From positions 1 through 35,507 of the forward strand of contig JAFGKV010000155.1 in assembly GCA_016928395.1 (NCBI GenBank): DNA of 35,507 bases, written 5' to 3'. The notes beneath the pieces were generated by a model. The model saw only the letters and a list, made by a program, of their open reading frames with translations, ran no database searches and was not told the origin of the DNA. The position numbers and the translations under genes are program-made. The stretch comes from Candidatus Fermentibacterota bacterium. Lineage in GTDB: Bacteria; JAFGKV01. Below, piece after piece: positions 28,850-29,531 of the stretch; positions within the stretch are counted from its first letter, which is position 1, and every line of letters starts with the position of its first letter.

Positions 28850-28995
28850 CTGCCCACCTCATCGTGGTGGTCTGCTACATTCGGAATCGGAGAGAGGTAC
28901 ACAGCACCAAGGCGTGATTCATCCCTCACCCATCCGTCCATCCGTCTCTTCCCCCCTGGAACCCGCCGTACACCCCCGGGTATTATCAAATGCGT

Positions 28996-29089
28996 CCTCC
29001 ACGCCCGGACACACGACCTCTGATGAGACGAGCCGGGCACGAAGCAACGCCAAACGTGGGAAGAGGCACCGTCTGTGCGGTGCCTTTTT
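28996..29089 (+). promoter_or_regulatory. Structured 5' leader, possible regulatory RNA
   Basis: A TATTAT box at 28981 could start a transcript of about 95 bases whose leader folds well. CCACG (28999-29003) pairs with CGTGG (29055-29059) and encloses GCCCGG/CCGGGC (29003-29008 with 29033-29038) and a small CTC-TGAT-GAG hairpin. CCTC at 28996-28999 can also pair with GAGG at 29063-29066, which shares bases with the terminator stem. This is the mutually exclusive pairing of an attenuator. No known riboswitch class was recognised. Confidence 0.4.
29065..29089 (+). terminator. Intrinsic terminator 24 bases before the selenoprotein gene
   Basis: GGCACCG-TCTGTG-CGGTGCC followed by TTTTT: a perfect 7-bp GC-rich stem and U-tract on the plus strand. 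It ends only 24 bases before the GTG of the DUF6132-type gene. It either ends an upstream RNA or acts as an attenuator for that gene. Confidence 0.8.
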
Positions 29090-29113
29090 CCTTGGCTTGG
29101 AGACACACACATC

Positions 29114-29290
29114 GTGATCACGAAGCGACTCATTGCCGCCGCGGTCGGCGCGGGGTTAGGCTGGGGATTCAGCTATCTGTCCCGCTGCTCCGGCGGGGTT
29201 TGAGCTCTCACCTCCAACCCCTGGTCAGGGGTTCTGATCGGCGCACTCATCGGATATATGGCGTTCGGCCCACGCCCGCCATCCGACTGA
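29114..29290 (+). CDS. DUF6132-type membrane selenoprotein (Sec at codon 30)
   Basis: This is a 58-codon gene with an in-frame TGA at 29201-29203. Read through as selenocysteine (U), it gives two hydrophobic helices around YLSRCSGGVUALTSNPWSG, then VLIGALIGYMAFG. DUF6132-type small membrane proteins carry a GCSSGxCPITSNP motif, and the TGA falls exactly on the second Cys. Homology continues without a frame change to the true stop at 29290. The family is often near rhodanese and thiosulfate-transport genes, so a sulfur or selenium redox role is likely but unproven. The start is GTG 29114; GGAG lies 11 bases upstream, somewhat far. A SECIS-like hairpin follows the TGA. A nonsense mutation in a decaying region is the alternative. 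Confidence 0.75.
29216..29233 (+). promoter_or_regulatory. Bacterial SECIS-like hairpin 1
   Basis: AACCCC-UGGUCA-GGGGUU is a perfect 6-bp stem with a hexaloop. The loop starts 18 bases after the TGA and contains GGUC, with G at loop position 2. The E. coli fdhF SECIS has loop AGGUCU starting 17 bases after its UGA. This meets the general bacterial rule of a G in the first two loop positions at 16-37 bases from the codon. Confidence 0.75.
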
Positions 29291-29353
29291 GTTCCCCCAA
29301 TGCGATGGTAGTGCGCCCGCGGCGATTCACCGTCCAGCACCATCCTTGAGAGA

Positions 29354-29375
29354 GCTATTCTAATGTTAGAATAGC
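29354..29375. promoter_or_regulatory. Palindrome GCTATTCTAA-TG-TTAGAATAGC, copy 2
   Basis: This is a perfect inverted repeat with 10-base arms. It is AT-rich and nearly identical in its core to the palindrome at 2897-2918. It lies 63 bases after the selenoprotein stop and about 155 bases before the histidine kinase start, so it could be an operator for the kinase gene. Dimeric ArsR or Fur-like repressors use sites of this shape. Confidence 0.5.
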
Positions 29376-29531
29376 CCTCTTCCTGCCATGTCTCCCGGAT
29401 TCAAGGTGCTCCGCCGAACCCATAGGGAGCTTTCCGCTTGCAGGACGACAGCGGAGGCAGTACTATGCAGTCCCCGTCGGCTCAGAGATTCACACTGAGC
29501 ACAACGCGGTCGGCAATGCCGGAGGTTGACG

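Follow-up and report, generated by a model that had tools for sequence, protein, structure and literature searches.

The closest described relatives of the gene analyzed here are the cysteine forms of DUF6132 (PF19628), which share its length, its two helices and a GCxxGxCPxTSNP loop, and whose neighbors (thioredoxin, DUF302, OsmC) overlap with those of the selenocysteine (Sec) forms described below. The closest described decoding system is SelB with the SECIS element of E. coli fdhF, which carries GGUC in an apical loop lying about 18-19 nt after the UGA. Among selenoproteins, the FmdB-family, OsmC-like and YeeE/YedE proteins are known Sec families of thiol/sulfur proteins, and a putative mercuric transport selenoprotein, PF02411, bears the motif C/SxxU (Table 1, PMC13188914); FmdB itself is a Sec family in ocean metagenomes (PMC2398784). 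The sequence-only reading of this DNA knew of no described Sec form of DUF6132, and we could not find one either: DUF6132/PF19628 is missing from a 2026 catalogue covering 119 families of prokaryotic selenoproteins (PMC13188914), NCBIfam holds no model for a DUF6132 Sec form and gave no match near a cut-off, and the deep-Sep paper does not name DUF6132 among its new families. The sole literature match to a word beginning DUF6132 was false, concerning nucleotide sugar transporters. Description under another name remains possible, the families of Haft and Tolstoy (2025) having been compared only by way of that catalogue and the NCBIfam models, and the sequence of GOS_A (2008) lying outside the comparison.

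The window, by which we mean the whole 35,507-nt stretch analyzed, is contig JAFGKV010000155.1 of a Candidatus Fermentibacterota bacterium (GCA_016928395.1). On its forward strand, the frame at 29114-29290 has a GTG start, then 57 codons, then a TGA stop (29288-29290), and GGAG at 29099-29102, 11 bases before the GTG, is a Shine-Dalgarno-like sequence of inferred role. Read-through translation recovers what the sequence-only reading had described, a 58-codon frame interrupted only by TGA at codon 30 (29201-29203), with no other stop or frameshift; the read-through protein is VITKRLIAAAVGAGLGWGFSYLSRCSGGV-U-ALTSNPWSGVLIGALIGYMAFGPRPPSD. PF19628 matches this protein at 33.1 bits (cut-off 23.2, E 4.4e-8), which bears out its proposed identity as a DUF6132-type membrane protein. 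Its loop, CSGGVUALTSNPW, fits CxxGxC[P/A]xTSNP between two hydrophobic helices, Sec replacing the second Cys, and the TGC at 29186-29188 encodes the partner Cys25 of the CxxGxU motif, at -5 relative to Sec. The window gene differs from the Cys form of DUF6132 in having Sec (UGA) for the second Cys together with a SECIS hairpin. Standard annotation would truncate or skip such a gene because it is short and has an internal stop.

An AlphaFold2 model of the window protein, of low confidence (pLDDT 68, pTM 0.36), places helices at 2-25 and 36-51, and a PDB sequence search returned one meaningless match (E 0.6). Mean K/R charges of 1.7 at the N-terminus, 0.5 in the 14-residue loop and 1.5 at the C-terminus favor, by inference, an arrangement with both termini inside and the loop on the outer membrane face.

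Taken alone, the open frame and hairpin of the window are modest evidence, because the window, read in six frames, holds 317 frames that are interrupted by TGA and stay open for more than 24 codons to either side of it, and the hairpin by itself is not significant against synonymous recoding (p 0.11); the folding energy of the region around the TGA also equals that of shuffles (z -0.01). Relatives decide the matter. What lies beyond chance is the DUF6132 match, the position of the TGA exactly on the conserved Cys of the family, and the retention of both TGA and hairpin in relatives.

Genome contigs were scanned with a degenerate DNA pattern, C-x-x-G-x-(TGA)-[PA]-x-T-x-N-P, which gave 18 matches, six of them DUF6132-like: two contigs of one Delongbacteria MAG and one match each in an uncultured bacterium and in Calditrichota, Armatimonadetes and Pontiellaceae MAGs, so that independent Sec forms occur in MAGs carrying those four names. 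The other 12 were chance matches, by reading. An alignment of these pattern relatives with the window protein (A1) was searched against whole genomes with stops read through; including all searches, about 1,300 whole genomes were covered, plus the one pattern scan. The A1 search matched in 30 of 386 genomes of a domain-wide set, and in 54 of 132, 33 of 395 and 68 of 387 genomes from the phyla of the Calditrichota, Pseudodesulfovibrio and Pontiellaceae MAGs, respectively. The PF19628 profile alone matched in 4/98 genomes and detects divergent Sec forms poorly, A1 being much better. A single-query tblastn scan of genome contigs found no relative, its back-translated patterns allowing only Cys codons at the Sec site, and no convincing homologue turned up among plasmids or phages. 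Four viral-contig pattern matches proved by translation to be chance.

The codon at the Sec column was read in every fetched match. Across 146 homologues, a count that leaves out the near-copy L040 and two non-homologous matches that were set aside (L080, L122), the codon is TGA in 89, the window included, TGC or TGT in 57, and TAA or TAG in none, so the TGA does sit on a conserved Cys as had been claimed. For two sequences (L160, L162) the automatic alignment was off by one codon, and the Sec column was put right by direct inspection. In the first homologue set TGA was scored as Cys, which favors TGA, and in the second all stops were neutral X; the codon result was the same under both. TGA occupied 30/30 loci read in the phylum of the Pseudodesulfovibrio MAG, and Cys codons 28/30 in that of the Pontiellaceae MAG. 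The only invariant columns in 74 diverse homologues are G16 and Cys/Sec30.

The conservation of residues 3′ of the TGA, namely the SNP motif and G47 in helix two, resembles that of the residues preceding it. This conservation bears on the possibility that the UGA is a regulated stop, with a 29-residue peptide as the usual product and read-through rare and regulatory. Sec insertion in bacteria does compete with termination and depends on selenium supply, but conservation beyond the UGA, and the Cys forms, which make the whole protein without any stop, leave this explanation very improbable.

The hairpin that the sequence-only reading had noticed, perfect, with loop UGGUCA and 13 bases after the TGA, lies at 29216-29233 (arms 29216-29222 and 29227-29233, loop GGTC 29223-29226). 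Written AACCCC-TGGTCA-GGGGTT, its stem starts at the 13th base after the TGA, with 19 nt from TGA to loop. It resembles the fdhF element in its place in the coding region just after the UGA, its GGUC loop and its spacing; it differs in having a shorter and simpler stem, in belonging to an uncultured host lineage, and in lying within the gene of a protein that has no relation to formate dehydrogenase. With an energy of -9.9 kcal/mol and a GGUC loop it fits the published bSECIS constraints (loop of 3-9 nt, G in the first two loop positions, 16-37 nt after the UGA, energy <= -7.5; PMC13188914). No Rfam riboswitch or SECIS family matched here.

Among relatives a SECIS-type hairpin goes with the TGA and not with the Cys codon, and it is far stronger than synonymous codon choice would produce. 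The mean best hairpin of 52 non-redundant TGA forms was -7.24 kcal/mol, vs. -3.96 in synonymous recodings, none of 150 being as low, whereas 48 Cys forms had no hairpin excess (-3.22 vs. -3.01 kcal/mol; 41/150 as low). About half of the Sec forms lack a hairpin <= -7.5 kcal/mol under the simple model used. The loop is GGUC, 19-20 nt from the UGA, in 10 Sec forms with a strong hairpin; L083 and L079 keep it while their stems and encoded residues differ. Within the window subgroup (14 relatives), compensatory changes affect four of the seven stem pairs around the GGUC loop, with 12 cells changed on both sides, a level reached in 0/500 shuffles, and sliding the partner abolishes the signal.

These results weigh against a pseudogene, in which a DUF6132 gene would be decaying and the TGA would have arisen as a chance nonsense mutation. 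Frames broken by TGA are frequent in the window, and the gene is absent from both other same-phylum genomes examined (one of the same genus, one of the same family), so no close orthologue confirms the window copy. Against decay, the same codon is TGA in 88 relatives and TAA or TAG in no relative, the stem is preserved by compensatory changes, and the random stops or frameshifts that the sequence-only reading had named as the mark of a pseudogene are not seen in the window frame. We consider a pseudogene highly unlikely.

That reading had also made its claim depend on the genome holding selB and selC, and on this count it stands: the window genome has selB (342.4 bits, cut-off 242, with SelB winged-helix domains, and apparently the same gene order in two relatives, judged by eye from ORF starts) and a tRNA-Sec (76.8 bits, gathering score 47, anticodon TCA). 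A search for selA (PF03841) gave no match in this draft genome of 343 contigs and 94.2% completeness. An assembly gap or a different route to Sec-tRNA could possibly explain this, which is the main weakness of the selenocysteine case. In the domain-wide sample selB scored over the cut-off in 11/11 TGA genomes vs. 8/18 Cys genomes (Fisher p 0.002). The association is untestable within the Calditrichota-type phylum because most genomes there (113/132) have selB. Four TGA genomes (G098, G451, G480 and G444, the last three from the Calditrichota-type phylum), of unknown completeness, gave no convincing SelB match.

The same genome speaks to the idea that TGA is an ordinary sense codon, for Trp or Gly, with no Sec involved. 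A read-through frame exists, as that idea requires, but the genome's own PAS kinase, QueA-like protein and SelB lack in-frame TGA, the PAS kinase ends in TGA, relatives show TGA standing for Cys rather than Trp or Gly, and a tRNA-Sec with a TCA anticodon is present; we regard a sense-TGA code as excluded for practical purposes. The selenocysteine insertion first proposed from the letters alone is supported by the codon table, hairpin covariation, selB and tRNA-Sec, and we conclude that the UGA of the 29114-29290 gene is very probably decoded as Sec, in the absence of proteomic evidence.

Sec and Cys have exchanged repeatedly. On a tree of 98 non-redundant proteins 12 Sec/Cys changes are required, and well-supported branches force at least four of them; the tree rests on 62 columns and is poorly resolved in parts. 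The window protein groups in it with Sec forms L063, L160, L043 and L188. The lack of the gene in same-genus and same-family genomes makes its distribution in this lineage patchy, and by inference it may have been acquired horizontally. Two contigs of Delongbacteria MAG UBA12480 carry near-identical Sec copies (L028, 1038-1256, and L040, 41-265, reverse). No convincing SelB was found in UBA12480; its relative, the L038 genome, has SelB.

Exactly one partner Cys accompanies the Sec column in 84/89 Sec forms and in all 57 Cys forms. In Sec forms it lies at -4 to -7 or at +4; one form has both, and four have no Cys nearby. Among L095-L136 and L164-L186, the usual Cys at -5 has disappeared from most of the Calditrichota-type Sec forms and from many of the Desulfobacterota-type ones, which carry a Cys at +4 instead (GST-U-xxx-CNP). 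The partner at +4 in many Sec forms is a further difference from the DUF6132 Cys form, and with the replacement of one Cys by the other the partner has changed sides relative to Sec. Such an either/or partner would be expected of a redox pair, or of a two-ligand site.

The genes adjoining Sec forms in the first set (n = 50) encode DUF302 (20), FmdB-type zinc ribbon (12), OsmC (9) and thioredoxin (5) proteins, and in the second (n = 33) thioredoxin (6) and zinc ribbon (3). Next to Cys forms (n = 32) are thioredoxin-like (10), rhodanese (2), DUF302 (2) and OsmC (1) genes, with peroxiredoxin-type, YgaP-like TM, sulphur-transport and ArsR genes as further neighbors. Genes for FmdB and OsmC, and in one case for a YeeE-type sulphur transport domain, adjoin DUF6132 genes; the Sec families of those names differ from DUF6132, as they include no two-helix membrane peptide with CxxGxU or UxxxC. 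The Sec gene is often followed directly by one for an FmdB-type zinc ribbon, as in L091, L098, L102, L106, L165, L167 and L181. In L055 (L140), L059 (L141) and L075 (L146) an OsmC-like gene directly follows Sec DUF6132 and is itself followed by a small gene, ArsR-like by its start as read by eye; L055 and L075 also have a thioredoxin-like gene upstream. None of the thioredoxin, OsmC or DUF302 neighbors stands beside the window copy, which is flanked by genes of other kinds.

We suggest how such a protein might work. Recoding at the codon, the SECIS element, Sec/Cys exchange and the single partner Cys are demonstrated insofar as sequence comparison can do so, and to these the redox pair, outer-face loop, substrate and direction of electron flow are added by inference. 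SelB and Sec-tRNA would read UGA at codon 30, directed by the hairpin 13-30 nt downstream, giving a predicted 58-residue membrane selenoprotein of two glycine-rich TM helices (about 2-25 and 36-51) whose loop presents Cys25 and Sec30. Sec30 may attack a disulfide, persulfide or peroxide-type substrate and then pair with the partner Cys as a selenenylsulfide, which a thioredoxin-type reductant would reset; the setting may be one of OsmC, DUF302 and rhodanese-type proteins handling oxidised or sulfane sulfur. This membrane thiol/selenol redox-relay role is inferred; it is the likeliest role we can name, and we hold it tentatively, as a possibility falling slightly short of an even chance.

Its main rival grants the recoding and makes the Cys/Sec pair the ligands of a soft-metal or persulfide site, binding or sensing mercury, copper or persulfide, with no redox relay. 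A pair of chalcogen ligands placed in the loop that joins two TM helices is reminiscent of the MerT-type transport proteins. ArsR-family regulators lie near some copies, and a connection with organomercury exists for other Sec families (Table 1, PMC13188914). The putative PF02411 protein is listed there as a transport selenoprotein with a Cys/Sec motif, but its Pfam family and motif are other ones, and no scanned Sec-form protein matched PF02411. Moreover, it is thioredoxin, OsmC, DUF302 and FmdB, rather than metal pumps or MerR/MerA, that make up the commonest neighbors, and a ligand site seems unlikely to us, though it cannot be dismissed.

Beyond the sequence-only reading, the comparison reveals a widespread Sec form, a partner Cys that can change sides, and a thioredoxin/OsmC/DUF302/FmdB context for relatives. 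We think it somewhat probable that these genes represent a large undescribed family of two-helix membrane selenoproteins of about 55-70 residues, which would rank with the smallest selenoproteins of membranes and which several phyla, most of them uncultured, share; in this family Sec would be fixed, while the partner Cys has moved from about -5 to +4, and the protein would serve as a membrane-embedded selenol relay in sulfane-sulfur/thioredoxin-linked redox. A widespread family appears thereby to be added to the prokaryotic selenoproteome, and the otherwise uncharacterised DUF6132 can now be linked to a likely catalytic residue with its partner Cys and to a pathway context, which opens its function to testing. 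With Sec and Cys exchanged repeatedly and the partner Cys switching sides, the family offers a compact natural experiment on what cells gain from selenium, and searching Pfam families with stops read through can reveal selenoproteins missing from current lists.

Two further features surround the window gene. Just upstream, on the forward strand, an inverted repeat at 29058-29091 with a T run (T5) forms an intrinsic-terminator-like hairpin of inferred role, in which a strongly folding leader (28985-29100, z -3.46) ends. A consensus terminator scan of the window did not include this hairpin among its matches, and Rfam gave no match over the gathering score for the leader at 28985-29091; by inference the hairpin may mark the end of the upstream transcript or be part of an attenuating leader of the Sec gene. 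About 60 bases 3′ of the gene, a second inverted repeat (29349-29380, AGAGAGCTATTCTAA/TTAGAATAGCCCTCT), with 15-nt arms 2 nt apart, is possibly a terminator or a regulator site.
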